Shown piece after piece: positions 12,730 through 46,736 of a DNA stretch of 64,000 nucleotides. The notes under the pieces are model-generated. The model saw only the letters and a program-made list of their open reading frames with translations, had not been told where the DNA came from and searched no databases. How positions within the stretch are numbered: the stretch's first letter is position 1; each line of letters opens with the position of its first letter. The stretch spans positions 1 to 64,000 of the forward strand of contig UPZS01000003.1 of NCBI GenBank assembly GCA_900538905.1, read 5' to 3'. The stretch is from an uncultured Sutterella sp. Its GTDB lineage: Bacteria; Pseudomonadota; Gammaproteobacteria; Burkholderiales; Burkholderiaceae_F. A program made the position numbers and the translations under genes.

Positions 12730-12742
12730 CGTGGTACCGGTA

Positions 12743-13710: not shown

Positions 13711-13799
13711 GAGATTATTTCTCTGGATGGTTTGCACGAATTTGCGCTTTCGACGTGCGGTAAACACTCCGTCTTCTGCGATTTGCACCGCGCAATTGT

Positions 13800-13823
13800 A
13801 AAAACGCCGCCGATAACGGCGGC
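13800..13823 (-). terminator. rho-independent terminator inside the sulfite locus
   Basis: On the minus strand GCCGCCG-TTAT-CGGCGGC (7-bp stem, 4-base loop) is followed by G and then five T. It lies between mccD and the first NosL gene, about 115 bases after the mccD stop. It would end or attenuate mccA-mccD transcription. Confidence 0.65.
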
Positions 13824-13871
13824 CCGTTCGACAAGACCGTTATATCAGTCTTCTAGTGTTATGAGAAGAGT

Positions 13872-13903
13872 CAACTGCGGCGGAGCAATTTCCGCCGCAG
13901 TTG
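13872..13903. repeat. 13-bp perfect hairpin after mccD
   Basis: CAACTGCGGCGGA (13872-13884) pairs perfectly with TCCGCCGCAGTTG (13891-13903) around a 6-base loop. There is no T-run on either side. It sits 35 bases after the mccD stop and may protect the 3' end of the mccA-mccD message from exonucleases. Confidence 0.7.
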
Positions 13904-13937
13904 CTTAAGACTTAAAGTCTTATGGGATCCTCAGCAA

Positions 13938-14858: not shown

Positions 14859-14860
14859 CT

Positions 14861-15547: not shown

Positions 15548-15553
15548 AATATT

Positions 15554-15557
15554 CTCC
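15554..15557 (-). promoter_or_regulatory. ribosome binding site deciding the mccC GTG start
   Basis: GGAG on the minus strand with a 6-base spacer (AATATT) to the GTG at 15547. It favours the shorter mccC product with a normal Tat signal. Confidence 0.6.
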
Positions 15558-15604
15558 ACAGACAGAACCGAATTTCTTATTGCTAAGACAAAGGGTTCCG
15601 CCGA

Positions 15605-16249
15605 TTAGTCTTGCAACCGAGCCCTGGACTCGGCATTGGCGATGGCATTTCTGAGCGCTCTTTGCTGAGCGGGTGCAACGCCCGCATCAAGCAGCATCTT
15701 CCAGTGGCTGACGGCTTCGTCATAACGTTGATGCATAAACGCATCCTCCCCGAGGAGCATTCGCGTCTGCACATCCAGCGCATTGATCGACAAAGCGCGC
15801 TCGATCACACGGTGAGTTTCGGCAGTTATCACTCTGGCGTCGCGATAGTACATCGCACGCGCGAGTCTCCCGAGTGCCTCCGCACTTTCTCCGCCCACCT
15901 TGATGAATTCGTTGAAAACCTCAACGGCCTCATCGTATTGGCCTGCTTCGTAAAGCGCTTCGGCCAACTCCGATTGCGCCCGCGCATTGTTGGGCATGTT
16001 TTTCACCATGCGCCGCGCTTCGGCAATCTTTGCTGCGAGCATGTAGTTCGTCTCAACCCCCGTTTGCTCGTTCTGCCAGTCGGCATACCTACCGAAACCG
16101 GCATAAACGGCAACGCTTGATGCGAGTACAAGAACTGCAAACCCGACCGTTAGCGGCATTGAGCGAAATTTGACGCGGTACGCATACACCCCGAGCAGAA
16201 ATGCAAAGAGTGCGGCAGTCAATGCAATCAAAACGTCCAAGCCGTTCAC
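15605..16249 (-). CDS. CcmI/NrfG-like TPR protein for cytochrome c maturation
   Basis: The 214-residue protein has two N-terminal membrane segments (about 5-25 and 33-51) and a tetratricopeptide-repeat domain (about 75-200) with motifs such as ARAQSELAEALYEAGQYDEAVEVF and MLLGEDAFMHQRYDEAVSHW. CcmI and NrfG use such domains to hold apocytochrome C-termini for the heme lyase. In this locus it would complete the CcmF/CcmH set encoded downstream and guide the CX15CH-containing MccA. The start is a GTG with AAGG 7-8 bases upstream. It is the first of the maturation genes but is separated from ccmF by the mccCD and nos genes. Confidence 0.8.
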   Translation of the reverse strand: MNGLDVLIALTAALFAFLLGVYAYRVKFRSMPLTVGFAVLVLASSVAVYAGFGRYADWQNEQTGVETNYMLAAKIAEARRMVKNMPNNARAQSELAEALYEAGQYDEAVEVFNEFIKVGGESAEALGRLARAMYYRDARVITAETHRVIERALSINALDVQTRMLLGEDAFMHQRYDEAVSHWKMLLDAGVAPAQQRALRNAIANAESRARLQD

Positions 16250-16318
16250 GAAAATGCCTTCACTTTGTTAAAGAGCTTGTTTATTGCTCAGAAAGTCAAG
16301 TCGTCATCACCAGCACAT

Positions 16319-17086
16319 TTATTTGTGCGGGTTGGGCATACCGTTGATCACGGTCTTACCCATGCCTTGATGGGCTCCGACTTTTTCGACCTTGATCAGT
16401 TCCAGTTCAAAGATCAGCGGAGATTCCGGGGGGATCTGACCGGCACCGAATTCGCCGTAAGCAAGGTTCGCAGGAATCGTGAAACGGAACTGCGCACCTT
16501 CCTTCATCAGCTTCAGGCCTTCTTCCAGACCCGGAATAATGCTCATGACCACGAAACGGGCAGGCTGCTTGGCCTCATACGTGCTTTCAAACACCGTGCC
16601 GTCCATGAGTTTGCCCGTATAACCGACAGTGACCACGTCCTCAATGCGAGGCGTTGCGCCGGACCCCTTTCTGAGCACCTCATACTGCAGGCCGCTCTTC
16701 GTAACCGTCACGCCCTTTTTCTTAGCGTTTTCGGCGAGGAACTTGGTGGCCTTGGCCTTGTTTTCCTTGGCCATTTTCTCCTTGGCAGCCACATCCAGCT
16801 TATTGAGCTTTTCAGCGCGGCTGTTGAGGAACTTCAGCATGTCTTCGTCAGAAAGTTTGCTTTTTCCGCGAATCGCATCCTGGAAGCCCTGTTCAATAAG
16901 AGCCATGTCAGCCGACAAGCCGAGCTTGCTCTGCTTGTAGATCTGATCAGAGAGGTAGTTTCCGACCGATGCCCCCATGCTGTAGGACTCTTTGGCCTGC
17001 TGCGTGTCAAGTTCGCCAGCGAAAGCAACGGTACCGGCACACATCAGAACGGAGGCCGTCAGCACGATTTTCTTGAGGGATTGCAT
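16319..17086 (-). CDS. mccB: MccB, periplasmic FKBP-type peptidyl-prolyl isomerase
   Basis: The 255-residue protein has a signal peptide (cleavage about AFA), a FkpA-like helical dimerisation domain (about 25-140, ending in the Lys-rich MAKENKAKATKFLAEN segment) and a C-terminal FKBP domain (about 150-240) with VTVGYTGKLMDGTVFESTY, IPGLEEGL, IPANLAYGEFG and PLIFELELIKV. It catalyses proline isomerisation during periplasmic folding. The Wolinella mcc operon has a peptidyl-prolyl isomerase gene (mccB) next to mccA, and this gene matches that role for the octaheme cytochrome. Confidence 0.9.
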   Translation of the reverse strand: MQSLKKIVLTASVLMCAGTVAFAGELDTQQAKESYSMGASVGNYLSDQIYKQSKLGLSADMALIEQGFQDAIRGKSKLSDEDMLKFLNSRAEKLNKLDVAAKEKMAKENKAKATKFLAENAKKKGVTVTKSGLQYEVLRKGSGATPRIEDVVTVGYTGKLMDGTVFESTYEAKQPARFVVMSIIPGLEEGLKLMKEGAQFRFTIPANLAYGEFGAGQIPPESPLIFELELIKVEKVGAHQGMGKTVINGMPNPHK

Positions 17087-17185
17087 TGTGGTTTCTTTCT
17101 TCAGTTAATACAGTTCACCCGCAGTACTCTTCCAAAACTGGAATCGAGTACTGCGCAAAAGCTTGCTTGGTTTATTGCCGCTTCT

Positions 17186-17611
17186 TTATGGAAGCTCAAC
17201 TTGCCGCCCCGTAAGCTTCCAGCCATAGATTCCATCGGGCATCTGCCACACGTTGGTGTAGCCGAGTTTCATGGTCTCATAGGCTGCAATCTGACTGGAA
17301 CTGCACAAGCGATTTGCGCAATAAAACACAATCAGTGTGTTCTTATCCTTGGGAAGGAGCTTCTTCCAGTTGCCGACGTTAAAAAACACCGCTCCTGGAA
17401 TGTAACCCTCAGCCCAGAGCTCGAGCGTATTGACATCAAAGATGCGCACACCGGGCTCCATAAAGAGCTGTTCGGCCTCGGGAATCGAGACTTGTCTGAC
17501 TTTGTAGACATATTCCTCGGCCGCTTCCAAAGGAGCATCCCCGCCGGCAAAGCCGAGCATCGGGATTGCTAGAAGCGCACAGACCGCAAGATTTTGCAGT
17601 TGTTTTTTCAT
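17186..17611 (-). CDS. exported single-domain rhodanese in the sulfite locus
   Basis: The 141-residue protein has a cleavable signal (LAVCALLAIPMLGFA) and one rhodanese domain with IFDVNTLELWAEGYIPGA and an active-site loop VFYCANRLCSSS. The loop cysteine at its start is the expected sulfur acceptor, and the loop contains a second cysteine five residues later. Periplasmic rhodaneses move sulfane sulfur; near a sulfite reductase it could handle sulfide, polysulfide or thiosulfate. It lies 108 bases after mccA, behind a stable hairpin, and 99 bases before mccB, suggesting lower expression than mccA. The ATG before KKQLQN was chosen; an upstream TTG is in frame. Confidence 0.85.
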   Translation of the reverse strand: MKKQLQNLAVCALLAIPMLGFAGGDAPLEAAEEYVYKVRQVSIPEAEQLFMEPGVRIFDVNTLELWAEGYIPGAVFFNVGNWKKLLPKDKNTLIVFYCANRLCSSSQIAAYETMKLGYTNVWQMPDGIYGWKLTGRQVELP

Positions 17612-17651
17612 TTCGTGTTCCAATGAACCTGTTTTTCCATCTGACCCTCGA

Positions 17652-17683
17652 AGCGAAGGGAGTTTTGAGTCACTCCCTTCGCT
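17652..17683. repeat. 12-bp perfect hairpin after mccA
   Basis: AGCGAAGGGAGT (17652-17663) pairs with ACTCCCTTCGCT (17672-17683) around an 8-base loop, 36 bases past the mccA stop. There is no T-run on the minus strand, so it is more likely a message-stabilising or partial-termination hairpin that raises mccA output over the genes behind it. Confidence 0.7.
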
Positions 17684-17719
17684 CGAGAATAGGAGATCAA
17701 GGTTTACTAGTCGCTTAGA

Positions 17720-19774
17720 TTACTTCTTGGCTTCAGTCTTGATGAGCGGGAAGTTGCCGTTATCAAGAATCTTCTGAGCCTGCGTCAAGTAGGCGTTAGC
17801 GGTATCAACGCGCTGCTTGAGGTAATCGGGAGCGTGAACACCCCAGGAACCGTCTTCTTCAACCTGCTTGGTGATGTCGGCAGCCTTGTCGACGAGCAGC
17901 ATGATTTCGGTCTTGGCTTCAACCGTGAGCTTGGTGACTTCCAGAAGCTTGTTGATGCGTTCCAGAGCAGCCTTGGCGGTCTTGAAGCCGTCCTTGACCG
18001 GGTTCTGCCACTTCATGACTTCACCGTAGATGACCTTCTGATCACCGTACTGCAGGCCCTTTTCGAGTTCGGACAGGAACAGGCTATGGCAACCCTTGTT
18101 GTCCATCACACCCTTTTCAGCGTTGGCCGTACGGGCGCAGGACCACATCAGGTCAACGTAGCCATGGCCTTCTTCGTCACGTGCAACGTGCCAGCCCTTG
18201 GAGTTGGAAGCACGAGACTGACCGGCACCCGGGTTCATCATCTTCTTTTCCGGATCGACTTCGATCTTGAAGAGGTGAGAACGACGGACGGCGTCGAAGC
18301 CGGCCATGTCAGGACGCTGGATAGCCGTGAAGTTTTCGCAGCTCATCGTGAACGGCATATGGCAGTCCACGCAGTCCATCTTCTTGTGGGTGTTGGTGTT
18401 AGCAACAACGTCGGCCTGGGTCTTGTGGCAGTCCTGGCAGGTCTGACGGATGGCGGGCTTGGTGTAGTAGTCCTTCCAATCGTTGCTGGTCACTTCGTGC
18501 GGATCGTGGCAGGTCACGCAACGCATACCCTTTTCATAGTGCTTGGACATCATGAGCTGAGAGCCTTCGGTACCGCAGGACGGGCAAGAAGACTTCGTCT
18601 TGATGTTGAAGCCCTTTTCAAGCTTGCCCTGAGCGGACGGAAGCTTGTAGTCGCTTTCGACGAAGTTGGAACGCTGGTGGCAACGTTCGCAGTTCGTCTG
18701 GAAGCCGTTGGATTCAGCGCCAACCAAGTGGCCGCCGGCACCGTGGCATTCTTCGCAGGAAATACCGCGAGAAATCGTGTGCTTCTGCAGTTCCTTGGCG
18801 TTGCCAAGAGCCTTGAAGAATTCGTCCTTAGACTTAAAGTCAAACTTGAACGAGTGGCAGACTTCGCAGTAGGAGGTAGCGGACTGGAACAACAGAGTCT
18901 GTTCGTAGGTCGAACCGTAGGAGGTCATACCCCACTGGTGCGAAGCCGACGGACCGAACTTGCTCAATTCAGTCGGGAAATCAGGAATAACCTTCTGAAT
19001 TTCCTTGGCCTTTTCGGGGGTGAGCCACTGTGCCCAACCGCGGGAGAACTGGTTGCCGCCGGCAACAATCGTACCGGAGAGGTCACTCAGAAGACCGTCA
19101 CGGACGTGGTAGGAACCACGAACCAGCCACTTGTCGATGAAGCCATACTTCGTGCGCGGCGTACCGACGGTCACGTAAATGTCGTCAGGCATGATGCCAT
19201 CAGGCAGAATCGAAGCCTGAGAGCCATAAAGCTTCTTCTTCAGATCGTTGTTGACTTCGGGATGTTCGCCCGGGAAGCGCAACGTCTGAGCATGACGCGA
19301 TCTCTTCCACTTCTGGTACTGGATCGCATGGCATTCACCGCAGCGTTCCGGACCGACGAAGCGGTTCGGGAAGTCCAGCACGGACTTGGCAGCCAGGCGG
19401 TACTGGGAAGCGCTCGGACGGCCGCCGGCAAGCTTCGAATAGGTCTGAGCATTACCTTCCGTCAAGAATTCCGAACCACGGGTCGAAATCTTGTACACAC
19501 CCTTGATGGCGCCTTTTTCAGCATACTTAAACACCGGGTGATTCTGGAAAAGGTAGTCCCACATTTCCTTTTCTTGGACGATGTAGTCCTGGAGCGTCTT
19601 GACGCCCATTTCCTTTTCAGTCGTAGACGGATTGTCCCAAACCTTCTGCGTAATGGTATTCACGGTCTTGGTGCCGAGGCCAGGGCCCGTAGAGGCAGCT
19701 TGTACACCAGACGCAACCAAAGCAGCGGAGCAAAACAGCGTTGCAGCCGCCGTTTTGATCATTTTTGTTGTCAT
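17720..19774 (-). CDS. mccA: MccA/SirA-type octaheme cytochrome c sulfite reductase
   Basis: The 684-residue periplasmic protein has a signal peptide cleaved near VQA-AS. Seven CXXCH heme sites are at residues 145, 303, 340, 362, 419, 446 and 468. An eighth site is C546-X15-C562-H563, the CX15CH motif that defines MccA/SirA dissimilatory sulfite reductases. These enzymes reduce sulfite to sulfide with six electrons at a heme-copper centre. Extra cysteines in the mature protein are C397 and C400 (CPSC) and C479, candidates for the two Cu(I) ligands. The C-terminal 100 residues are helical. A strong AGGAG lies 6 bases before the ATG. It heads the locus and is followed by its isomerase, electron-donor and maturation genes. 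NrfA and hydroxylamine oxidoreductase were considered and excluded by the CX15CH motif and neighbours. Confidence 0.96.
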
Positions 19775-26919: not shown

Positions 26920-26954
26920 TCCTAATGCCTGTACTGATTTTTAATTCAAAAAAA

Positions 26955-27048
26955 ATTCTACAGTAGGTACTCAAAAATTTCTACAATAAAAAGCTAAAAA
27001 TTTCTACAGTAGGAACTCCAAAATTTCTACAATAGGAAGAACTTTCCT
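26955..27048. repeat. four 23-bp-phased repeats upstream of the AAA/DUF4143 gene
   Basis: The core TCTACARTA recurs at 26957, 26980, 27003 and 27026, exactly 23 bases apart. Copies 1 and 3 read TCTACAGTAGG, copies 2 and 4 TCTACAATA. An A-rich TTT/AAAAATT spacer precedes each of copies 2 to 4. CTAC-A-GTAG in copies 1 and 3 is an interrupted palindrome. The array begins 36 bases from the ATG, so it is placed like an operator for that gene. Confidence 0.8.
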
Positions 27049-36396: not shown

Positions 36397-36551
36397 GTTT
36401 GGTTGATCCTTAGAAGTTTTGAAAGCTGCAAAACATTGGGATCAACATTGTTTCGCGTTTGCAAGCCTTTGAGATGACTTGAAAATTCAGAACAATTCCG
36501 TAATTTTCACAGGCTCCCAACACCTTGATTTTGTGGTAGTGCGCACATTCG

Positions 36552-36589
36552 AAAAAAGATCGGGGACCGTATGCACACCGGCACCGATC
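36552..36589 (-). terminator. terminator of the heme operon
   Basis: On the minus strand GATCGG...CCGATC (36584-36589 with 36558-36563) closes a hairpin with an inner CCG/CGG pairing, followed by six T. It starts 33 bases past the flavodoxin stop. Confidence 0.65.
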
Positions 36590-36622
36590 CCCTGTGTTTC
36601 AACAAAATATTGCGATATTTAC

Positions 36623-37126
36623 TCAGGCACCAAACACATCTTGGTAGGTCCTAACGGCCGCCAACGCATCAAGTCGATCCGGATGCGTTTCGCTTTGCTT
36701 GCGGCGCGCTTCACGTTCGGGCGTCACTTCGCCGCCCATCATGGCGGTCATGCGGGCAAAAAGTTCCGGATCAATGCGTCCTCGGCATAAAAATTCCAAC
36801 TTGAGCGTGTTGTCCTCTCCTGCCTCGACCAATGTCATACTCGTACGATGCATCCAGTCCTTGGCTTTCGGATTTTCCGGATCACCGCCCATCGTGGCAA
36901 AGCAGGCAATGTCTTTGCCCTTAATCCGTTTAGCAACAGCCTTGGTGTCTTCGGGCGCCATGCCGCGATCGCACCAAAAACAAAGCACGATCGGGTTGTA
37001 TGCGCTCAGATCGGCAGGCACCTGAGAGGCTTCGACATAGTCGCAGGGCCCAATGCCGTCTTGCAGAGCGCGTGCAATGACACGGGTATTTCCCGTTTTC
37101 GAACTGACAACAATCAGAGGTTTCAT
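36623..37126 (-). CDS. flavodoxin-superfamily protein of the heme operon
   Basis: This 167-residue single-domain flavodoxin-like protein begins KPLIVVSSKTGNTRVIA, with the FMN-phosphate loop SKTGNT. It continues with IVLCFWCDRGMAPEDTKA and FATMGGDPENPKAKDWM, and has a C-terminal helical tail (RMTAMMGGEVTPEREARRK). It is the last gene of the heme operon, 14 bases after the HutX-like gene. Two roles are plausible: electron donor to the radical SAM heme-opening enzyme, or reductase of the linear tetrapyrrole product, as proposed for HmuF of Fusobacterium nucleatum and for the BilS partner of bilirubin reductase. I chose the ATG at 37126 because GGGAAG lies just before it; ATG 37138 adds four residues. 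Confidence 0.82.
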   Translation of the reverse strand: MKPLIVVSSKTGNTRVIARALQDGIGPCDYVEASQVPADLSAYNPIVLCFWCDRGMAPEDTKAVAKRIKGKDIACFATMGGDPENPKAKDWMHRTSMTLVEAGEDNTLKLEFLCRGRIDPELFARMTAMMGGEVTPEREARRKQSETHPDRLDALAAVRTYQDVFGA

Positions 37127-37140
37127 GATGCTTCCCATTT

Positions 37141-37674
37141 TTAAGCGCAGAAGGCTTCCTTGCCCGCAAAAAACAGTGTCTTGACGGACTCGATGATTTT
37201 GTGATTTTCTCGTCCGAGATAAACCGAGAAGGAAACCTTACCCTCCTTGTCAAAGAAAATCACGCAATGCGATTCGCGCTTCATGAAGGGAATGGAAGCA
37301 AACGCGATGGCACCGACGGCGTCGAACTTCAAATGTCCACCCACCACAGCGTTCTTATGAAGGATGTTGTAGTAACCTTGGGCGCGCTTACCCGCAGAAA
37401 GCTTCGCTTCGATTTCAAACACGTGGCCGCCGTGCTGAATGAAAAGCGTAGCGCGCTCCCATTGTGCGAGACTCTCCCACACCTCATCAAAGCGTTCCGC
37501 CACGTCACCCGTCACGAACGAACACATGTCGCGCCCGAGAAGTTGTGCGGCCGCAAGCGGCGTCAGATCAAGACGAGCAGCAATCGTCTCAAGCGTAGCC
37601 GGAAAAGGCGCGGCAAGCAGTTCCTCGATCACAGACTTCTGCTCTTCGGTTGCGGTGCGATATTCAATCGTCAT
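37141..37674 (-). CDS. hutX: HutX/HuvX-type cytoplasmic heme carrier
   Basis: The 177-residue protein matches the HutX/ChuX heme-utilisation fold. It has an N-terminal winged-helix-like segment (ATLETIAARLDLTPLAAAQLL), then the conserved core KNAVVGGHLKFDAVGAIAFASIPFMKRESHCVIFFDKEG and VYLGRENHKIIESV. HutX binds heme in the cytoplasm and passes it to degradation enzymes. No hutZ is present next to it; in this operon the recipient would be the HutW-like radical SAM enzyme. The gene follows the ECF ATPase by 55 bases and precedes the flavodoxin by 14. Confidence 0.85.
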   Translation of the reverse strand: MTIEYRTATEEQKSVIEELLAAPFPATLETIAARLDLTPLAAAQLLGRDMCSFVTGDVAERFDEVWESLAQWERATLFIQHGGHVFEIEAKLSAGKRAQGYYNILHKNAVVGGHLKFDAVGAIAFASIPFMKRESHCVIFFDKEGKVSFSVYLGRENHKIIESVKTLFFAGKEAFCA

Positions 37675-37729
37675 CGTTTTATCCCCTCAAAAATGTGAGC
37701 TGAAATTTACTTTTGCTTCTTCAAAACAT

Positions 37730-39211
37730 TTATCTGGCGCATTCCTTCTGCAAATCCGTCATCACCAACGCCCGATCACACGATTCCAAAAGCTCCAGAT
37801 CGTGCGTTACCAGAAACACGGCGCGCCCTGCATCTGCCTGCTCGCGCATCAGACGGGCAATGGCGGCCATATTGGCGCCGTCCAACCCGCTCGTCGGTTC
37901 ATCCAAAATCAAAATGGCTGGATTTTTTGCAACGGCGCAGGCAATCACCAGACGCTGTTTTTCGCCTCCGGAAAGACTTTGCGGATGGCGCTCTGCCAAC
38001 GCCAATAAATTGAGACTTGTCAAAATTTCATGGACGCGAGTCTTGTCTTCAGAACTCGGCCGCATGACAGCCAAACGTCGCCATCCCCTGGCACCCGAGG
38101 CACCGATGCGCCCAGCCACAATGGCACCTTCGACTTCTTCGGTCACCGTCCGCATCTGCAACTGATGATCGGCGTTTTGAAGCACCAATCCGGAAAACGG
38201 CATCAATCCTTCGTCGCCGACTTTTTCCTCGCCAATGTAAAAGTCCCCCTTAGCCTTATTGAGGCCCGTGAGAATGCGGGCCAATGTCGTCTTACCCGTG
38301 CCGTTGTCACCCACAAGTGCCGTAATACCCTGCCCAACAGTAAAACCCGTGCCGTCAAAAATGACATGCTTGTCGTCGTAGGCAAAACGTATGCGGCTCG
38401 CTGAAAATACGTCGCGCGTTTTCGGTGTTGTTTCTTGGCTCGTCACCTCAATGCGCGGCAAGGCCCGACGCACATCCGACACCTCGGCTTTTCTCAGTCC
38501 CCAGCGGGCACGGAAAGCATCGTCATAGAGTCCGATAAACGGCATTTCAGTCACGATCCTGCCCTGGCTCATCACGATGACGGCATCGGCAGCGTCTTTG
38601 AGCCAGTAAAGCCGATGATCCACCACCAAAATTGCCGCACCTTCTTTTTTAAGCTCCAAGATCGTGCGAGCAAGCGCTTGTGTTGCTTCCGGATCCAAGT
38701 TGGCACTGGGCTCATCGAAAATAAGCGTCTTGGGCCCCAACGCCAGAATGGCCGCCAGACCGACCTTCTGCTTTTGTCCTTCGGACAGCGCATGAATATC
38801 GCGCGTGAGCAGTTCCTCAATTCCAAGTTTGCGGGCAGCTTTTAGCGTACGCTCGCGCACATCCTTGGGGTCAAACGAGCGGCTACGCAGAGCAAAAGCA
38901 ATTTCGTCGCCCGCGTTGAGTGCGAAAAACTGCTCTTCGGGATCTTGAAAAAGCGTGCCAATCACTTCCGACAATTCCGCCACCGGCGTTTCGGAAACAT
39001 TGAATCCGGCCACCGTCACACTGCCTTCGAGTCGGCCGCCGTATATCTGCGGGCAAAGCCCATTGGCCAGACGCATCAATGTGGTCTTGCCGCAGCCTGA
39101 CGCCCCCGTCACCAATTTGAGCTCCCCCGAAGCAACCGTGAAACTGATGTCGGAAACAGCCGGCGTCTGCGTATTAGCGTAGGTGTATGAAACGTTCTTG
39201 AATTCGATCAT
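37730..39211 (-). CDS. ECF transporter fused double ATPase (EcfA-EcfA')
   Basis: The 493-residue protein carries two ABC ATPase domains in one chain. Domain 1 has Walker A GASGCGKTT (about 37-45), the ECF-type Q-loop FQDPEEQFF, signature LSEGQKQKV and LIFDEPSANLD. Domain 2 (from about 255) has GDNGTGKTT, LQNADHQLQM, LSGGEKQRL and LILDEPTSGLD. The Q-loop DPEEQ is diagnostic of energy-coupling-factor transporters. It works with the T and S components encoded immediately upstream. The position between a TonB receptor and HutX points to heme or a tetrapyrrole as substrate, which is inference. Confidence 0.92.
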   Translation of the reverse strand: MIEFKNVSYTYANTQTPAVSDISFTVASGELKLVTGASGCGKTTLMRLANGLCPQIYGGRLEGSVTVAGFNVSETPVAELSEVIGTLFQDPEEQFFALNAGDEIAFALRSRSFDPKDVRERTLKAARKLGIEELLTRDIHALSEGQKQKVGLAAILALGPKTLIFDEPSANLDPEATQALARTILELKKEGAAILVVDHRLYWLKDAADAVIVMSQGRIVTEMPFIGLYDDAFRARWGLRKAEVSDVRRALPRIEVTSQETTPKTRDVFSASRIRFAYDDKHVIFDGTGFTVGQGITALVGDNGTGKTTLARILTGLNKAKGDFYIGEEKVGDEGLMPFSGLVLQNADHQLQMRTVTEEVEGAIVAGRIGASGARGWRRLAVMRPSSEDKTRVHEILTSLNLLALAERHPQSLSGGEKQRLVIACAVAKNPAILILDEPTSGLDGANMAAIARLMREQADAGRAVFLVTHDLELLESCDRALVMTDLQKECAR

Positions 39212-39230
39212 GTCGGGAACCTCACAAACC

Positions 39231-40022
39231 CTAGTGCATCATCTTGACGCCCCCGTCGGGCATCCAGATATGTGCAAGCCATATTTCGCAGCAAATCACA
39301 GCAACGGTCGTCAAAACCAACAACCCCAAGACATTCCAGTCAATCGGACAAAGGCCGACGCCGTCGCTGCGAATCGTGCGCTGGCGGGCACCCATTCCTT
39401 TGAGTTCCGCGGCAACGCCCAGCGTTTCCGAGCTCTTCAAAGCCCGAAACAGAATCGGTGCCAGAATCAAGCGGGCCGATAGGATCGGGTGTAGCGTGAG
39501 CATCGCCGGCCCCAGCGGCCAGCCCTTGATGCGAAGAGTTTCCCAAACCTGTTTGATGTCGTTGGCAAAAGTCGGAATAAAGCGCAGCATCACGGCCGTG
39601 GGCAAAAAGATGACAAAAGGCAACTTCATGCGTTCCAACGTCAGCAACAGATCTTCCACACGTGTAGTGAGAGCCAGAACCATCACCACGTTCATCATGG
39701 AAAGTCCGCGCAAAAAGGGAATCAGGAGCATCTTGGCGCTCAGCCCGCCGAGCCCCGGCATCCAGAGCTGAAAGCCCAGCGCGCAGAGCGCTGCAATGGC
39801 CATCATCGCCGCCATCAGAACGTACAAGACAGCGACCAGACCGGGGCGCTTGAGCAACAACACGTAAACAAGTGTGACAGCAAAAAGCACGAGCTGTGAC
39901 ACCATGCCGGAAGAGGCGACAGTCAGCACCGCCGTTGTTGCCGTCACGATGAGTTTGGTACGGGCGTCGAGCTTTCGCAGCACGCTCGACTGTGCCACCC
40001 CCTTAGCGAACAAAGCCCGCAT
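39231..40022 (-). CDS. ECF transporter transmembrane component EcfT
   Basis: The 263-residue protein begins VLRKLDARTKLIVTATTAVLTV, the typical EcfT start, and has four to five membrane segments (about 24-110 and 225-245). Cytoplasmic coupling helices carry the short basic segment LRIKGWPLG and AELKGMGARQRTIRS, corresponding to the A-R-G motifs that contact the ATPases. The ATG lies 20 bases inside the S-component gene, so the two are coupled. The ATPase gene starts 19 bases downstream. Confidence 0.9.
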   Translation of the reverse strand: MRALFAKGVAQSSVLRKLDARTKLIVTATTAVLTVASSGMVSQLVLFAVTLVYVLLLKRPGLVAVLYVLMAAMMAIAALCALGFQLWMPGLGGLSAKMLLIPFLRGLSMMNVVMVLALTTRVEDLLLTLERMKLPFVIFLPTAVMLRFIPTFANDIKQVWETLRIKGWPLGPAMLTLHPILSARLILAPILFRALKSSETLGVAAELKGMGARQRTIRSDGVGLCPIDWNVLGLLVLTTVAVICCEIWLAHIWMPDGGVKMMH

Positions 40023-40551
40023 GTCGCAACTCCTTTACCGTTTTACGACCAAACCAAAGTCCGCCGAGAGACCCCAGATAACCAATGAAGACGATCGGCA
40101 CAACCATCGTCATCAAGCTTGGGCTTTCGCGCATGAAAAGAAACGACACGCCAAGCGACAACCCTTTGCTCACAAGGTCATAAACGCCGACACCCACCCA
40201 AGGCGACCAAGGCTTGAAAGCCCCTCCCGTCAACCAAATGCAAAGTTCCCCCAGCAAAGCTCCGGCTAAGGCTGCCGGCAACAGCGTCAGACTGCCGCCC
40301 ATCAAACACACGCTCACGATCATGCTGATGACCGTAAACAAAAGCAACGTGCCGGGCTTGGGCACTTTGGTAAGCAGCACAATGATCAGCGTCGTATAGA
40401 CAAGGTTTTTCGCAATCAGCGACACAGGGTTCATGCCGCCGCCGGCCAGAGCGATCAACAGGCTCGAGAGTTTGGCCGCTGCGGCAAAAACGCCGATAAG
40501 TACAAGCTCTCGCGCTTCCCAATGCCGTTTTCTGATGGGAGTGTCCGTCAT
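40003..40551 (-). CDS. ECF transporter substrate-binding S component (MptD/Trep_Strep type)
   Basis: The 182-residue polytopic protein has about five to six membrane helices. It starts HWEARELVLIGVFAAAAKLSSLL and has the segment VLLTKVPKPGTLLLFTVIS found in MptD/Trep_Strep-type S components. S components fix the substrate of ECF transporters. The family's substrate is not established to my knowledge; here the gene sits between a TonB-dependent receptor and HutX in a heme operon, so heme or a related tetrapyrrole is the natural candidate. No permease of the classical HutCD/HmuUV type is in the operon. Confidence 0.82.
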   Translation of the reverse strand: MTDTPIRKRHWEARELVLIGVFAAAAKLSSLLIALAGGGMNPVSLIAKNLVYTTLIIVLLTKVPKPGTLLLFTVISMIVSVCLMGGSLTLLPAALAGALLGELCIWLTGGAFKPWSPWVGVGVYDLVSKGLSLGVSFLFMRESPSLMTMVVPIVFIGYLGSLGGLWFGRKTVKELRHAGFVR

Positions 40552-40658
40552 AACGTTTCGTAGGTGCGGGAAAAGCCGTCCGGAAAGTGTTGATCAGGAA
40601 GCCAAATCAAACACTTTCCGGATCAGCCCGGTCTTTTCAGACCTTTGAAGAGGGTGAT

Positions 40659-42710
40659 TTAGAAGCGAGCTCCCAGTTTGGCCACAAAGTAGCGCCCGGG
40701 TTCATAGATGGAGGTCTGTTCCTGATACCCCTTGTCAAAGATGTTGTAGAGCCCCAGATCAAACGTGTACTGGCGCTTCGGGCCGAAGTCCACACCCGCC
40801 GTCAGATTGAGCGTGGTGTAGCCGCCGAGTCGATAGCTACTCGAGTCCGTTGCGCTCTGAATACCATCGTTGTATTCGATTTCGGTCTGCGAGCGGGCAA
40901 AAGCATCGGCTCTCAACCCCAATCCCGCGTACATGCCGCTCCAGCGCACGCCGTAGCGCAGCATAAATGCCGGAGTAGCGGTGTCGTACGTCGAAAAACC
41001 GTTGCCGTTTTGATATTGACGACGCATCCACGTCGCAGTCAGATAGGGTTCAAAGCCGGTCTCGGCAATGCGTACGGATGACGTCAGCTCGACGCCGAAC
41101 GTCTTGGCCTCTGCCACATTGCTGTACTTATAGCCCCCCAATGATTCATTCCAAAGCGTCGCAATGTAGTCGTCCGCCTCCGAGTAGAACGCCGCAATAT
41201 CGGCCGACACATAAGCCGAAGACCAGCGCGCACCGATTTCGAAGTTGTCCGACGTTTCAGGCTTCAGATCCGGATTGGCATAAGTCGTGCCTCCGGCCTG
41301 CCCCATGGCGGTATCCACATAGAGTTCCTGCAGAATGGGAGAGCGGTAGCCCTGTGCGTAACTTGCACGCAAAGACAGATTGTCCGTTGCCCGCCACAAG
41401 AGACCCGCGTTGAAAATCAGTTTACCGTCCGACTGGTTGGCATTCTTCCAGTCCCCCGCTTTTTTGACGTCCCGGCTGTCCATGTCCGTCTTCACCCAGG
41501 TGTAGCGTGCGCCGTAGGTCAGCGTAACGTCGGCCGGCAACTGCGTTTCCATGCTAGCGTAAACAGCGTTGGTCATCTGATAGCCGTCGTAGAGCTTGTT
41601 GCCCATGACCATCGTCATCATGGGCATTATCATTTGCGTGATGCTTTGGGCCGATAAGTCATCATAAGAAAGTTCATAACCGGCAATCAGGTAATTGCGT
41701 TCGCCCAACTGCCAATCCGTCTGCAACGAGAACCCATACTGATCGGTCGTGTTATAGGCCATCGGCTGAACCACATAAGACATCGATCCCATTGATCCGG
41801 GTACGCTGTTTACCATGTCTTTCTTGCTTTTCTGGTAGAAGGCATCGGTACGCAATCGCACAAACGCATCACTGATGTTTCTAAACTCCCCAAATGCCGC
41901 CGTTTTGAATCGCGACCACTTGGGTACATCCACCGTAAAGCCCGGCGTGTTGACGTCGCTCGAACCAAATTCAAGGTCGTAGTAATCCACCGAGGCTCCG
42001 ACCGTGGTGTTCGGCGTGAAGTCATATGACAAGAAGCCGGAAACCGAACGAGCCGTGAAGTACGTGTTCTCCATTTCACCCTTCGGGGTCTTCAAATTGT
42101 CGTTGTCTTCAATCGACGCACTTAACCGATATTTCCAACCATCAATTCCGCCGTAAATCGAACCCGAGGCGTTCTTCCCAGAAGCCGAAGTATTCATGCC
42201 TGCCGATACCTCGCCTTCGATCAGCTTCGTACCGCCCTTTTTCGTGATGATGTTGATGGCGCCGCCAATGGCGTCCGAGCCGTACAAAACGGAAGCCGGC
42301 CCTTTGATCACTTCGATGCGTTCGATCATGGATGGATCGATCAGCATCGGCGAGCCCGACATGGACTTGTGTTCCGATACCTTCTGCCCATCGATCATCA
42401 CGAGGGTGCGAAAGGCATCTTCACCGCGAATCTTGATTCGCTTCATTCCCTGACCGCCGTCGTTATTGATGCGAACACCAGGAATGTCTTCGAGCAGTTC
42501 ACCCACGTTACGTGCGCTTGAACGGCGAATCTCCTCCTGCGTGATCACCGAAACGGACATGTTCACGTCCATCAGTTCCTGTTCCACGCGACCGGCTGTG
42601 ACCTTGACCTCATCAAGTTCTACGGTTTCCTGTGCCTGTACTTGCAGCGCGAGGCCGGAAAACGCAGCCAATACAGCGACAGCCGCAAGTTTGGGAGTAC
42701 GGGACATCAT
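40659..42710 (-). CDS. TonB-dependent outer-membrane receptor, probable heme receptor
   Basis: The 683-residue receptor has a signal peptide (AAVAVLAAFSGLALQVQA), a TonB box-like VELDEVKVTAG, a plug domain (about 45-160: LLEDIPGVRINN, GPASVLYGSDAIGGAINIITK) and a 22-strand barrel ending in aromatic-rich strands with a final Phe (AKLGARF). The segments YRSPILQELY and YANPDLKPETSDNFEIG resemble the FRAP and NPDL boxes of heme receptors. AAGGA lies 7 bases before the first ATG. It is 110 bases from hutW and 107 from the ECF genes. Without the operon context a siderophore receptor would be equally possible. Confidence 0.88.
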   Translation of the reverse strand: MMSRTPKLAAVAVLAAFSGLALQVQAQETVELDEVKVTAGRVEQELMDVNMSVSVITQEEIRRSSARNVGELLEDIPGVRINNDGGQGMKRIKIRGEDAFRTLVMIDGQKVSEHKSMSGSPMLIDPSMIERIEVIKGPASVLYGSDAIGGAINIITKKGGTKLIEGEVSAGMNTSASGKNASGSIYGGIDGWKYRLSASIEDNDNLKTPKGEMENTYFTARSVSGFLSYDFTPNTTVGASVDYYDLEFGSSDVNTPGFTVDVPKWSRFKTAAFGEFRNISDAFVRLRTDAFYQKSKKDMVNSVPGSMGSMSYVVQPMAYNTTDQYGFSLQTDWQLGERNYLIAGYELSYDDLSAQSITQMIMPMMTMVMGNKLYDGYQMTNAVYASMETQLPADVTLTYGARYTWVKTDMDSRDVKKAGDWKNANQSDGKLIFNAGLLWRATDNLSLRASYAQGYRSPILQELYVDTAMGQAGGTTYANPDLKPETSDNFEIGARWSSAYVSADIAAFYSEADDYIATLWNESLGGYKYSNVAEAKTFGVELTSSVRIAETGFEPYLTATWMRRQYQNGNGFSTYDTATPAFMLRYGVRWSGMYAGLGLRADAFARSQTEIEYNDGIQSATDSSSYRLGGYTTLNLTAGVDFGPKRQYTFDLGLYNIFDKGYQEQTSIYEPGRYFVAKLGARF

Positions 42711-42820
42711 CGATTTTTCCTTCGTTTGATAAAGACAGCGCGCACTCTTGTGGTTTGTTTTTTACGGTGCGGCGTGTTCGTTAAATTCCTGTGTCAACGG
42801 GGATACTTTGAATGGAGTTC

Positions 42821-44311
42821 CTAACCGTGAGCGGGTTTTTCGCCGGAAAACACAGCGGCATTACCTGCCGGACGTCCGCTCATTCCATTGGCACCCAATC
42901 GCATGCCAATAAGACCGATCAGCAATTGCGCCAGCGTCACGTGCCAATACTGACCAGCCACCGTTTGAACCAACCAATCGTCTACACGACGAAGTAATCC
43001 AGCATCAATCCACTGATTGATCACATCCTCAGACAACGCTCTAACAGGAACACCAAAACGTTTTTCGATTCGGGATAAATTGATGCGACCCGACTCCATT
43101 TCCGAACTGAGCGTTCGCATCAGGTGCCAATGATGGCCGGGCTTCATCAGCATGCCGACAGGTTTTTGCCCTCCTTCAAGCACCTTTTCCCATTCGGCAA
43201 GCCGTCTTTCCATCATGAAGCTGTTGCCGTACAGGCGACCGCCTGCTCCGCAACCGAAAGCCAGACAGTCGCATGGCCCTTTTCCGAGCGCGTTGTAGAT
43301 GTTTCGCTCGCGCATCGTCTGGCCCCAATGATTGTTTGAAAGCCGCCGCCACTGCGCGTTCGTGAAACGTTCGACCGAGAGAGCAAACATATCGGCCTTC
43401 ATAGCCGTGTCAGCAGCCGGGGGCAATTTGCCGTTGGCAATGTATTTAGCCAAAGGAGACTTCTCAAAGACGTTGAGTTGGTAGCAGTCCACGCCGTCAA
43501 GCTTGAGACTTTGCGCCGTACGAATGTCGTCTTCCCAAACTTCCATCGTCTGCCAAGGAAAACCGTAGATCAGATCAATCACAACGGCAGCTTCGTCATA
43601 GGAAATCAGCTTGTCGAGTCGCGACAAAATGGCGTCGCGCCCGTCCACTCGCATCACCGATTGACGCACGCGGTCGTCAAAGGTCTGCACGCCGAGCGAA
43701 AAGCGATTGGCGCCGCCTTCCAGGGCCGCCTCGATCTTGTCGTCTCCGAAATTGTGAATTCGCCCTTCAATTGTTATTTCGCAGTCGTTGGCAAGCGGCA
43801 GATAGCGATTGACGGCGGTAAGCACCGTCTTGAGATCTTCGGGTTCAAGCGCCGTAGGCGTTCCGCCGCCGAAGTAAACGGCGTGCACAGGATGAGAATT
43901 CATCGCCGCCTTGTCACTCCACAGTTCGATTTCGCGCACGAGATTGCGGGCAAAAACCGAAGAAGCCTCTTTGCTGTAAGGGTTCTGATAGAACATGCAG
44001 TAAAGGCAGCGCGTTTCGCAAAAAGGCACATGCAAATAAGCAAGCGTCTTGCCATTTCGCGGCTGCTCGGCGACGGCCTCAAGGTAGTCGCGTGCCTCTT
44101 TTCCCATCAACGGCATACCGCCAGGACCAGAGTGAATGACCGCCTTGGCTTCAAAAGCCGCATGAAGAGGGTCGGCTGCATTGGCAAAAAAACTCTCAGC
44201 CGTACCGTTTTTGAGCTTTTCGCTCATCTTCTTGGCACCGGCTTCAAAGGTCACGTGCTTTAGTGCGGCACCGCCGTGGCCGACGGACAACTTCGTCTGA
44301 TTTTCCTGCAT
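42821..44311 (-). CDS. hutW: HutW/ChuW-type radical SAM anaerobic heme-degrading enzyme
   Basis: The 496-residue HemN-related radical SAM protein has the cluster motif in FCETRCLYC (C-x3-C-x2-C) and VYFGGGTPTALEPEDL, SLGVQTFDDRVRQSVMR and the C-terminal HemN-like helical region. HutW, ChuW and HmuW open heme without oxygen by radical methylation, releasing iron and an anaerobilin. It is not a coproporphyrinogen dehydrogenase, judging from the heme operon context and the N-terminal extension (SVGHGGAALKHVTFEAG). ATG 44311 is preceded in frame by TTG 44314; GGAG is 8 bases before the TTG, so either could start. It is the first gene after the Fur-controlled promoter. Confidence 0.9.
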   Translation of the reverse strand: MQENQTKLSVGHGGAALKHVTFEAGAKKMSEKLKNGTAESFFANAADPLHAAFEAKAVIHSGPGGMPLMGKEARDYLEAVAEQPRNGKTLAYLHVPFCETRCLYCMFYQNPYSKEASSVFARNLVREIELWSDKAAMNSHPVHAVYFGGGTPTALEPEDLKTVLTAVNRYLPLANDCEITIEGRIHNFGDDKIEAALEGGANRFSLGVQTFDDRVRQSVMRVDGRDAILSRLDKLISYDEAAVVIDLIYGFPWQTMEVWEDDIRTAQSLKLDGVDCYQLNVFEKSPLAKYIANGKLPPAADTAMKADMFALSVERFTNAQWRRLSNNHWGQTMRERNIYNALGKGPCDCLAFGCGAGGRLYGNSFMMERRLAEWEKVLEGGQKPVGMLMKPGHHWHLMRTLSSEMESGRINLSRIEKRFGVPVRALSEDVINQWIDAGLLRRVDDWLVQTVAGQYWHVTLAQLLIGLIGMRLGANGMSGRPAGNAAVFSGEKPAHG

Positions 44312-44419
44312 CAATCTTTTTTCTCCGAGAAGTGCCGACCGCCTTAACGCTTTCGGTCACAAGACGGCACTCGACGTTTTTGAGAACCGACTTAAAATTT
44401 CGAGCTCTCAGAATATCAC

Positions 44420-44436
44420 GAATGATAATCGTTCTC
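44420..44436. promoter_or_regulatory. Fur-like box overlapping the hutW promoter
   Basis: The 16 bases AATGATAATCGTTCTC (44421-44436) match 14 of 16 positions of the Fur consensus core AATGATAATCATTATC. They overlap the -10 of the hutW promoter, so iron-bound Fur would block it. Confidence 0.65.
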
Positions 44437-44449
44437 AAATTTAGATCAA
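44422..44449 (-). promoter_or_regulatory. candidate hutW operon promoter
   Basis: On the minus strand TTGATC (44449-44444), a 16-base spacer and TATCAT (44427-44422). The predicted start is near 44414, giving a leader of about 100 bases. Confidence 0.5.
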
Positions 44450-44526: not shown

Positions 44527-45009
44527 ATGTCTTTTGCTTCTAACCCATTGATTCAACAAGGAACAACAACCGATCACAATGGTTTGACGGCCATCCAAGC
44601 CGACTATCTTGAGATCATCTATGAAGAGCTTCTCGTCAATGGATCAGCCCGCGGTTGCGCCATTGCCAAAGCCGCCAACGTGACGCGCTCGACCGTCACC
44701 TCAACCATGCGAGCGCTCAAAGAGATGGGCTTTATCCACTACGAGCCCTACGGTACGATCACCCTTACCGAGAAAGGACTCAGCACAGCCAAGGATTTAC
44801 GCCGTCGTCGTCAGGCCATCGAAGCGTTTTTCACCGATATCTTCGGTACGCCGCCGCAGATTGCCCGAGAGCTTGCCGACATGAATAAGCACGGAGCTCC
44901 GGACAAGATGGTGAGTTCGCTACAGCGTCTGACGCGCTTTATCCGAGCGCATAAAGATGAGTGGCTCGATTGGGAACGCCAAGAGGCCTCCGAGAAACCG
45001 CACGCGTAG
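44527..45009 (+). CDS. DtxR/MntR-like transcriptional regulator
   Basis: The 160-residue regulator has an N-terminal winged helix resembling DtxR/MntR: LTAIQADYLEIIYE, then a recognition helix STVTSTMRALKEMGFI and wing YEPYGTITLTEKG. A helical dimerisation region (about 90-150) follows. Some metal-ligand positions expected in MntR look changed (KH where EH is typical, Arg-Arg before the dimer helix), so metal response is uncertain. It is divergent from hutW across the Fur-like box and overlaps no neighbour. The ABC exporter genes follow 9 bases downstream and are probably in the same transcript. Confidence 0.8.
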   Translation: MSFASNPLIQQGTTTDHNGLTAIQADYLEIIYEELLVNGSARGCAIAKAANVTRSTVTSTMRALKEMGFIHYEPYGTITLTEKGLSTAKDLRRRRQAIEAFFTDIFGTPPQIARELADMNKHGAPDKMVSSLQRLTRFIRAHKDEWLDWERQEASEKPHA

Positions 45010-45018
45010 GACGCACTC

Positions 45019-45954
45019 ATGTCGTCAAAAGAATCCGAGAACAGTGCCGCTCTGCGCGTGCTCAACCTTCGCAAAACCTACAAAGCCGCCGCGGCACCGG
45101 CGCTTGATGGCGTAACTTTCGAGGTTGGGCAAGGCGAATTTTTCGGCCTGCTCGGCCCCAACGGCGCCGGCAAGTCAACCCTAATCGGCACCGTTGCCGG
45201 CCTCGTCACACCCGATGCGGGAAGCGCTTACATACTCGGCCGCGACACGGTCAAAGAACCGCGCTTTACCAAAATGGCAGTGGGCATCGTGCCACAGGAA
45301 ATCACGTTCGATCCGTTTTTCACCGTAAGAGAAACATTGCGTCTGCAAAGCGGGTTCTACGGCATCCGTCACAACGACATCTGGATTTCCACGTTGATCT
45401 CAAGGCTGGGGCTTTCCGACAAAATAAACGAAAAAGTCTCACGCCTATCGGGCGGCATGAAGCGTCGCGTTCTGATTGCACAGGCACTCGTTCACAAGCC
45501 TCCGGTCATCATTCTCGACGAGCCCACGGCAGGCGTTGATGTTGAATTGCGTCACCGCATCTGGGACTTCATGCAGGAGTTGCACGCGCACGGTCACACG
45601 ATCATCCTCACAACGCACTACCTCGAGGAAGCCCAGAGCTTGTGCGACCGCATTGCGCTCCTTAACGGCGGGAAACTAGCCGCTTTGGACACCACCAAAG
45701 CACTTTTGAGCCGCTTCTCCGGTAAACGCCTGCGCTTTACCTTGCGCTCGGGTTCATTGCCGACAATCGAAGATTTTGTCTTCGAGCGCATCGACCAGAC
45801 CAACGACTACGCAGTGTCGTATCGCAATGACACCGACATCCTGACCGTGCTGCAAGCCCTGCAAAGCACGGCCCGCATCGATGACATTCACACGGGAGAA
45901 TCCAGCCTCGAAGAGGTGTTCCTGCACCTAACCAATTCGGACAAACGCCCATGA
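45019..45954 (+). CDS. ABC-2 exporter ATPase (YadG-like)
   Basis: The 311-residue ATPase has Walker A GPNGAGKST (about 45-53), Q-loop VGIVPQEITFD, signature LSGGMKRRV and Walker B IILDEPTAGVD, and the YLEEAQSLCDR segment typical of YadG/DrrA-type exporters. A C-terminal extension (about 230-300) is common to the group. AGGA lies 8 bases before the ATG. The stop overlaps the permease ATG (ATGA). The substrate is unknown. Confidence 0.9.
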   Translation: MSSKESENSAALRVLNLRKTYKAAAAPALDGVTFEVGQGEFFGLLGPNGAGKSTLIGTVAGLVTPDAGSAYILGRDTVKEPRFTKMAVGIVPQEITFDPFFTVRETLRLQSGFYGIRHNDIWISTLISRLGLSDKINEKVSRLSGGMKRRVLIAQALVHKPPVIILDEPTAGVDVELRHRIWDFMQELHAHGHTIILTTHYLEEAQSLCDRIALLNGGKLAALDTTKALLSRFSGKRLRFTLRSGSLPTIEDFVFERIDQTNDYAVSYRNDTDILTVLQALQSTARIDDIHTGESSLEEVFLHLTNSDKRP

Positions 45955-46736
45955 AACCTGTTGTGACCGACTACCGCCCGTTTGCCGCCTTCCTTACGCT
46001 TTTCGACAAAGAAGTCCTGCGGTTTCGGAAGATTGCGCTTCACGCCATCCTCGCGCCCATTCTCACATCGATTCTTTACCTGTTGGTGTTCGGCGAAGTG
46101 CTCAAAGGCAAGATGTCCGTACTTGGCGGCGTGGACTACGTCGCCTTTCTGATTCCGGGCCTAGTGATGATGGCACTGCTACAAAACGCGTTTGCCAACT
46201 CGGCCTCTTCGATTCTTCAGTCCAAGATCATGGGCAGCATCGTCTTTATTGAACTGCCGCCTTTTTCAGGCTGGCAGCTTGCCGCGGCCTTTATTTCAGC
46301 ATCCGTCGCGCGCGGACTGATTGTCGGCGCGGGCGTCTTTGCTGCCACCTGTCTTTGGAGCGTGCCGCCTCTGGGAAACGTCTTTTGGGTGCTCGGCTTT
46401 GCGATTTTAGGTGCCGCACTGATGGCTAGCCTCGGCGTCATCTGCGGGCTTTGGGCGGAAAAGTACGATCAGATGGGCGCTTTTCAAAGCTTTGTGATCA
46501 TGCCGCTCACATTCCTGTCAGGAGTCTTCTATTCGGTCGAGCAACTGCCGGATTTCTGGGCCAAAGCGTCGCTTCTCAACCCCTTCTTCTACATGATCGA
46601 CGGCTTTCGCTACGGTTTTTTCGGTCGCAGCGACTTCGATCCCTTCATTTCGCTGTTTGTGACCGGAGTTTTCTGCGCAACCGCTGTCGCCATTGCGACG
46701 ACACTGTTTGTGACCGGCTACAAGCTCAGACATTAA
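45951..46736 (+). CDS. ABC-2 exporter permease (YadH-like)
   Basis: The 261-residue permease has six membrane segments. Family features are FLTLFDKEVLRFRKIALHAILAPILTSILYLLVFG, DYVAFLIPGLVMMALLQNAF, VFIELPPFSGWQ and PLTFLSGVFYSVEQLPDFW, matching ABC-2 permeases of the YadH type. It completes the exporter with the overlapping ATPase. Cotranscription with the DtxR-like regulator suggests a link to metal or heme stress, which is inference. Confidence 0.9.
   Translation: MKPVVTDYRPFAAFLTLFDKEVLRFRKIALHAILAPILTSILYLLVFGEVLKGKMSVLGGVDYVAFLIPGLVMMALLQNAFANSASSILQSKIMGSIVFIELPPFSGWQLAAAFISASVARGLIVGAGVFAATCLWSVPPLGNVFWVLGFAILGAALMASLGVICGLWAEKYDQMGAFQSFVIMPLTFLSGVFYSVEQLPDFWAKASLLNPFFYMIDGFRYGFFGRSDFDPFISLFVTGVFCATAVAIATTLFVTGYKLRH

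Follow-up and report, generated by a model that had tools for sequence, protein, structure and literature searches.

How is heme carried across the inner membrane when the operon for its degradation encodes no classical heme importer? Anaerobic opening of the heme ring is known together with importers other than energy-coupling factor (ECF) transporters in Vibrio, E. coli and Fusobacterium, and in Vibrio hutWXZ is found with tonB-exbBD-hutBCD. The question is raised here by a 64,000-nucleotide stretch of DNA from an uncultured Sutterella sp. (GenBank assembly GCA_900538905.1, contig UPZS01000003.1, positions 1 to 64,000 of the forward strand; hereafter the window). Its minus strand carries seven codirectional genes from 44314 to 36623, that is, in order, HutW, a TonB-dependent receptor, an ECF S component, an ECF T component, an ECF double ATPase, HutX and a flavodoxin (44449 to 36552 with the flanking signals; Table 1); this gene content, strand, order and set of coordinates, first proposed in a reading of the DNA without database searches (the sequence-only reading), stood when all seven genes were checked. 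The same reading had noted the lack of a HutBCD/HmuTUV importer, and a search of the window for FecCD permeases likewise gave none. The best interpretation, and in our judgment a probable one, is that TonB-driven capture of heme is followed by ECF import, hand-off to HutX, ring opening by HutW and reduction by the flavodoxin.

HutW passes the cut-off of NCBIfam TIGR04107 (499 bits; cut-off 400; its start is listed as TTG, with an ATG at 44311), and HutX passes that of the equivalog TIGR04108 (123.4 bits; cut-off 110). The flavodoxin matches PF12641 (Flavodoxin_3) with 94 bits (cut-off 27.5) and scores 66.7 bits on the BilS model, below its cut-off of 155; its closest solved structure is 8g64 (106 bits, with an alignment that spans almost the whole profile), which we deduce from the spacing of residues to be FldH. 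His152, Pro153 and Asp157 of the flavodoxin are invariant in the 12 rows of its profile and match the His150-Pro151-Asp155 segment of HmuF/FldH; no His occurs in these rows at the position of the heme-ligating His134, a residue that is also missing from some HmuF proteins (PMC10404700, the source of the HmuF/FldH numbering; here and below, PMC numbers refer to excerpts of the papers). In Fusobacterium nucleatum, a flavodoxin of the HmuF/FldH type brings heme to HmuW and reduces anaerobilin (PMC10404700).

The three genes between the receptor and HutX encode an ECF transporter with a dedicated module (group I), as judged by gene content and fold: an S component, an adjacent T component and two ATP-binding cassette (ABC) domains, here joined in one protein. 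The S component matches PF09605 (Trep_Strep; 36.5 bits, cut-off 28.7) and reaches 24.7 bits on the NCBIfam MptD model TIGR02185 (cut-off 76.45); a sequence search of the PDB with it gave no matches. Its AlphaFold2 model (predicted local distance difference test score, pLDDT, 85) has the six-helix S fold, and the top rows of the VIA-align comparison are ECF S components, so the modeled protein shares the fold of this class. The S and T genes overlap by 20 bases. Walker and signature motifs can be read from the translation in each half of the double ATPase, which misses the cut-off of the ECF_ATPase_1 model (288 bits; cut-off 315). In the alignment of the S family (72 rows), His177, which is conserved in 68 rows, lies close to the C terminus on what is presumed to be the cytosolic side; on the outer face, Met40 (66 rows) is the best candidate for a ligand. 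The substrate of the module would be heme.

Table 1. Coordinates of the genes and candidate signals of the operon in the window
Feature	Position	Strand	Basis
HutW/ChuW-type class C radical SAM anaerobilin synthase	42821..44314	-	TIGR04107, Radical_SAM, CxxxCxxC in translation
TonB-dependent receptor, probably for heme	40659..42710	-	Pfam plug and barrel; NCBIfam; solved relatives
ECF S component (Trep_Strep/MptD kind), putative heme binder	40003..40551	-	PF09605, AlphaFold2 fold
ECF T component	39231..40022	-	PF02361 (CbiQ), 56.9 bits, cut-off 25
ECF double ATPase, two ABC domains in one protein	37730..39211	-	two ABC_tran stretches
HutX cytosolic heme carrier	37141..37674	-	TIGR04108
Flavodoxin-like, HmuF/FldH/BilS kind, putative anaerobilin reductase	36623..37138	-	PF12641
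Two overlapping sigma-70-like promoter candidates	44410..44449	-	promoter scan; overlie the Fur-like site
Fur-box-like site	44418..44436	.	14/19 to consensus
Terminator-like hairpin and U tract	36552..36592	-	3' of last gene

The sequence-only reading had proposed a genome neighborhood analysis of this S family, and its outcome is part of the comparative evidence for a link to heme. Judged by the identity of its S component, the window would come from a bacterium near Duodenibacillus/Sutterella. We aligned 39 S components and then scanned species genomes with the S peptides alone, that is, regardless of HutW, which gave 31 loci. A same-strand HutW gene lies within 4.5 kb of the S gene in 28 of them, spread over several phyla; a receptor accompanies the S gene in 24, HutX in 22 (21 by profile assignment and L017 by tblastn) and a flavodoxin in 24. 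These counts are of loci, and one genome was reached twice in the pairs L005/L209, L006/L214, L007/L216, L010/L219, L019/L155 and L021/L159; many of the genomes surveyed are metagenome-assembled genomes (MAGs). The complete order found in the window recurs in Sutterella, Duodenibacillus, Parasutterella, Mesosutterella, Mailhella, Desulfovibrio and Succinatimonas as well as in a Deferribacterales MAG and a Desulfobacula MAG, and one operon (L005) is without the receptor. A yak-colon MAG (L027:9971-12672) encodes the S, T and double ATPase proteins of this family, but its stretch contains none of the genes for HutW, the receptor, HutX and the flavodoxin.

The neighborhoods of HutW give the converse view. 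One gammaproteobacterial order has HutW matches at E-values of 1e-85 or better in 108 of its 394 genomes searched, the phylum of a Desulfovibrio relative in 17 of 345, and the Sutterella family in 23 of 67. HutW exceeds the TIGR04107 cut-off in one of 369 genomes sampled from the class (the centre genome), yet in 107 of the 394 of the one order; the class-wide sample understates the frequency of HutW, and when it was searched without a tight E-value, 352 of the 369 genomes matched, mostly with low scores and presumably through HemN/HemW relatives. HutW is therefore common in places, and its linkage to ECF genes is one on the scale of a few kb. We read 156 HutW loci in stretches of up to ~20 kb (eleven of them from the S-family scan; 4 kb stretches L052-L081 were superseded by longer versions of the same places, L161-L190). 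A FecCD permease is found beside HutW in 62 loci (62/109 in the gammaproteobacterial order, 0/18 in the phylum of the Desulfovibrio relative and 0/29 in the Sutterella family), and ECF S and T components in 30 (4/109, 7/18 and 19/29, respectively), with T alone in two more. The ECF pair and FecCD never occur together (0/156), a mutual exclusion that is expected if the two are replacements for one substrate; 18 further stretches, not drawn by HutW, were kept out of the 156, and none of these has both.

A tree of HutW proteins was built from 84 rows. One of its two sides (99/99) contains 29 ECF-linked, eight unlinked and no FecCD-linked sequences, and its members come from Sutterellaceae, gammaproteobacteria, Desulfovibrionaceae, Desulfobacula and Deferribacterota; seven more ECF-linked sequences are located on the other side (L024, L028, L030, L031 and L204-L206), and the ECF label of two extra copies beside operons of Sutterellaceae (L011:4170 and L218:7960) comes solely from nearness to an S gene. 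Further HutW copies in several Sutterellaceae have neither ECF nor FecCD genes in the stretch read (L208, L210, L217, L221 and L223); L224 and L225 (a 3 kb contig) are the sole HutW matches of their genomes.

Other arrangements were met in these neighborhoods. A gene for a Peripla_BP_2-like binding protein lies just upstream of the receptor gene in L024 (6845-7840) and of the S gene in L026 (8895-9869), an unusual pairing with ECF genes; a relative of the binding protein is also encoded near HutW in L191. A Desulfobacterota HutW operon (L201:4563-16304) encodes a heme-type receptor, a PNPOx-like protein, ExbB, ExbD (by clustering only), TonB, HutW and Flavodoxin_5, and in addition an S-like protein (P0121), an ECF T component, an ATPase and a heavy-metal P-type ATPase. 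P0121 has no Pfam or NCBIfam match, and hhalign gave a probability of 1% against this S family, so that homology is unsupported. From the binding proteins of L024 and L026 and the S-like protein of L201, which is not recognizably related to this S family, it seems that ECF modules entered HutW operons in at least two forms.

The sequence-only reading had counted a classical heme ABC importer elsewhere, if it fully accounted for uptake, as evidence against its proposal. We searched the genomes of 16 operon-bearing relatives, the genome of the window not being among them. A tree was built that combined 20 of the 40 listed FecCD matches in these genomes with 18 of the 62 HutW-linked permeases and, as references, six from E. 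coli, and all 20 permeases of the relatives fall outside the HutW-linked group (91/84). A HmuU profile made from the 18 HutW-linked permeases gave at most 284 bits in the ECF-operon genomes, as compared with 452-517 bits in six genomes from which profile rows had been taken, where the HutW-linked permease itself was scored (high by construction), and 392-405 bits on two other permeases of source genomes that are not profile rows; a HmuU-type permease was thus found in none of the 16. Succinatimonas hippei (L021, G015; its HutW is divided between two contigs, L158 and L159) and the gammaproteobacterial MAG of L019 (G016) carry the operon and have no FecCD match at all.

The substrate of the receptor is probably heme. 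Among solved structures, the heme receptor PhuR (8the) is its closest relative (201 bits) and the colicin I receptor the next (195 bits). The axial heme ligands of ShuA, which we take to be the plug residue His86 and a His between the FRAP and NPNL boxes, align with Ser116 and Met469 of the receptor; Met117, adjoining the former, is invariant in the 41 rows of the alignment, and position 469 is occupied by Met in 36 rows and by His in the other five. No His is conserved across these rows (five of which come from genomes reached twice), and the alternation of Met and His at the exact ligand column suggests that the receptor might ligate heme through Met. The heme-like boxes noted in the sequence-only reading are present; they carry Met or His and not the classical His pair, and they can also be aligned in the colicin I receptor, so we rejected them as the sole criterion for a heme receptor.

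The sequences show which genes are present, their families, the S fold, a conserved gene order and the absence of ECF-FecCD pairing beside HutW; the route that we infer from them, with its direction and its hand-offs, would run as follows. The TonB-dependent receptor would bring heme into the periplasm, where the S component would bind it at the periplasmic face of the inner membrane; the S component, docked on its dedicated T component and double ATPase, would release the heme to the cytosol at the expense of ATP. HutX would receive the cytosolic heme, HutW would open its ring without oxygen to give anaerobilin and Fe2+, and the flavodoxin would reduce the product. The ECF module would then replace the binding-protein-dependent HmuTUV/HutBCD importer that accompanies HutW in many other bacteria. 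This sequence of capture, ECF import, HutX hand-off and oxygen-free degradation had been put forward in the sequence-only reading, and it is supported by the linkage to HutW (28/31), the exclusion of FecCD (0/156) and the search for HmuU-type permeases (0/16 genomes).

Several observations weigh against this explanation. The double ATPase exceeds the cut-off of the cbiO ('cobalt') subfamily model (217.3 bits; cut-off 211.8); this model may mark merely ECF ATPases in general, and for this match we weighed heme slightly lower and another ligand slightly higher. No His is conserved on the presumed periplasmic side of the S family (72 rows), and the spectra of LhaS, an S component from Staphylococcus lugdunensis, suggest His coordination of heme (PMC7299338). 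For the receptor, the top named family is TonB-hemin (TIGR01785), matched at 228 bits and under the cut-off of 316.85; the ShuA-type pair of axial His residues was not found in the 41 rows. No relatives of TonB or ExbBD were found within the window (among 50 S-bearing stretches, ExbB-like genes occur in 38, ExbD in 35 and TonB in 27). HutW is absent near the S gene in L022 (a 6.7 kb contig) and L027, and in L026 a HutW-like gene is 9.9 kb away on the opposite strand. The commonness of HutW in one order (107/394) counts on the same side, as do the 62 of 156 HutW loci with neither ECF nor FecCD genes (43, 10 and 9 in the three groups; 18 of the 62 stretches are shorter than 15 kb). In one of the 62 (L213:3447-5794), HutW is followed by a receptor fragment of ~170 residues with no ECF genes within 14.7 kb, so that the operon is either disrupted or wrongly assembled. 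Finally, FecCD matches occur in 14 of the 16 relatives (up to seven per genome), and our importer search was one for the FecCD/HmuU type, no search for other heme routes (Dpp type) being made.

Some of these points would fit a module whose substrate is a tetrapyrrole other than heme (cobalamin, a bilin, a chlorin or a different metalloporphyrin) or a metal, or which accepts tetrapyrroles broadly, and that is co-regulated with the heme genes through a shared niche and receptor; we consider this unlikely. Its precedent is BtuM, an S-component-like protein of Gram-negative bacteria that binds cobalamin (PMC6072759), and the ATPase match, the S family without a conserved outer-face His and the 151.5 bits that the receptor reaches on TIGR01779, the model for B12 receptors (cut-off 599.7), are in its favor. 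However, HutW, HutX and the flavodoxin belong to heme-pathway families, none of the seven proteins exceeds a cobalamin-specific cut-off in the Pfam and NCBIfam scans, and the failure of ECF and FecCD genes ever to appear jointly beside HutW is the pattern of same-substrate replacements. The FecCD matches would fit instead a FecCD-type ABC importer encoded elsewhere that carries most of the heme, the ECF module being auxiliary or serving another nutrient of the same niche. An importer of another FecCD lineage could move heme in the relatives: the partner ATPase in L044 has a heme ATPase as its top model (164.8 bits, below the cut-off of 261), and ECF and classical heme importers exist side by side in S. 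lugdunensis (PMC7299338). We nevertheless find this explanation quite improbable, given that no permease of a relative resembles the HutW-linked HmuU in tree or profile and that two operon-bearing genomes have no FecCD match; also, of eight binding proteins encoded beside the relatives' FecCD permeases, seven match models far below cut-off (ferrichrome/ferrioxamine, Fe-dicitrate, archaeal-anchored, B12 or IsdE), and one matches nothing.

That the ECF genes are in the operon by chance or hitch-hiking and have no role with heme is hardly credible: although three of the 31 S loci have no nearby same-strand HutW, the linkage in the other 28 extends across several phyla and both sides of the HutW tree, and the S and T genes overlap within the operon. 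Heme import by the ECF module is accordingly the explanation we retain. A broader proposal, that a horizontally spread ECF importer replaced the heme ABC importer in anaerobic Gram-negative bacteria of several phyla, taking heme directly from the periplasm, and that Met and not His serves as the heme ligand both in the receptor (Met117/Met469) and in the S component (Met40), is offered tentatively, and we would sooner doubt it than rely on it.

If ECF import of heme is correct, heme would be added to the substrates that Gram-negative bacteria move through ECF modules, and the operon would be the first coupling of ECF heme import to a TonB-dependent receptor and oxygen-free heme opening known from the open-access literature searched. 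It would explain how, with no importer of the HmuU type, gut anaerobes such as Sutterella, Parasutterella, Mailhella and Succinatimonas could use heme iron. The operon would also provide a test case for the passage of a hydrophobic, redox-active ligand from receptor to S component with no binding protein in the operon.

The operon is presumably iron-regulated. The sequence-only reading had placed the transcript between a Fur-overlapped promoter and a terminator. The former agrees with the scans: scored against the consensus, the Fur-like site is the top match of the whole 64 kb (the runner-up scores 12), and it is overlain by the two promoter-like sites; the region contains eight promoter-like sites as compared with a shuffle mean of 4.4. 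The latter is less secure: a fold of 36540-36600 gives a 12-pair stem followed by GAUC and U6 (-19.4 kcal/mol), a hairpin that is statistically weak (z -0.88) and was not reported by the terminator scan. Upstream of orthologous HutW genes, Fur-like matches scoring at least 14 are present in 19 of 45 regions and absent from 26.

In the surroundings of the operon, a divergent MntR/DtxR-like regulator gene is located upstream and is followed by a pair of ABC-exporter-like genes (window 44527-46736); MntR-like matches also occur near some orthologous operons. Genes judged by eye, with no family search made, to be nos (nitrous-oxide reductase)-like lie at 9756-19774, and a 23-base unit is repeated in tandem (3.9 copies) at 26950-27038, with long open reading frames on either side. 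Rfam and ARAGORN gave no matches within the window.

ECF-type heme uptake is known for SiaFGH of Streptococcus pyogenes. An ECF-like heme uptake system is reported for Lactobacillus sakei, as described in a citing paper (PMC7872071); both systems are alike to ours in type and unlike it in belonging to Gram-positive bacteria, which have no outer membrane. The sequence-only reading, which named the L. sakei system, had called ECF heme import little described, and this requires amendment: for LhaSTA of S. lugdunensis, binding of heme by LhaS and the supply of heme iron by LhaSTA have been shown biochemically (PMC7299338). LhaSTA resembles the present module in its S, T and A genes, in an upstream Fur box and in the use of heme as an iron source, a likeness that is based on its description; it differs in being Gram-positive and in the isd locus, and the excerpted description has no TonB-dependent receptor and no HutW. 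In addition, the spectra of LhaS point to His coordination, whereas Met40 is the sole conserved outer-face candidate here.

The Vibrio hut genes and the F. nucleatum operon hmuTRUVWF (PMC10404700) share with the operon in the window a receptor, HutW or HmuW, and HutX or HmuF for the anaerobic release of heme iron; in contrast, their inner-membrane step is a binding-protein-dependent importer where ours is ECF, and the operon in the window has both HutX and a HmuF-like flavodoxin. BtuM is a further Gram-negative parallel, an S fold for a metallated tetrapyrrole whose gene is beside that of a TonB-dependent receptor; unlike the S component here, for which a dedicated T component and double ATPase are encoded, it functions without an ECF module and binds cobalamin through a Cys axial ligand, Cys80 (PMC6072759). 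The monocistronic anaerobilin synthase gene of E. faecalis (PMC12077173) and the HtsTUV family (PMC3654945) were not used for this case, and two further papers were set aside as not relevant, 'ECF' denoting a sigma factor in them (PMC12670364 and PMC8638967). As the sequence-only reading had supposed for Gram-negative heme-degradation operons, the combination of TonB-dependent receptor, ECF importer and HutW was not found in searches of the open-access PMC literature. ECF heme import is already known in Gram-positive bacteria; what would be new is its joining to a TonB-dependent receptor and to the anaerobic opening of heme.

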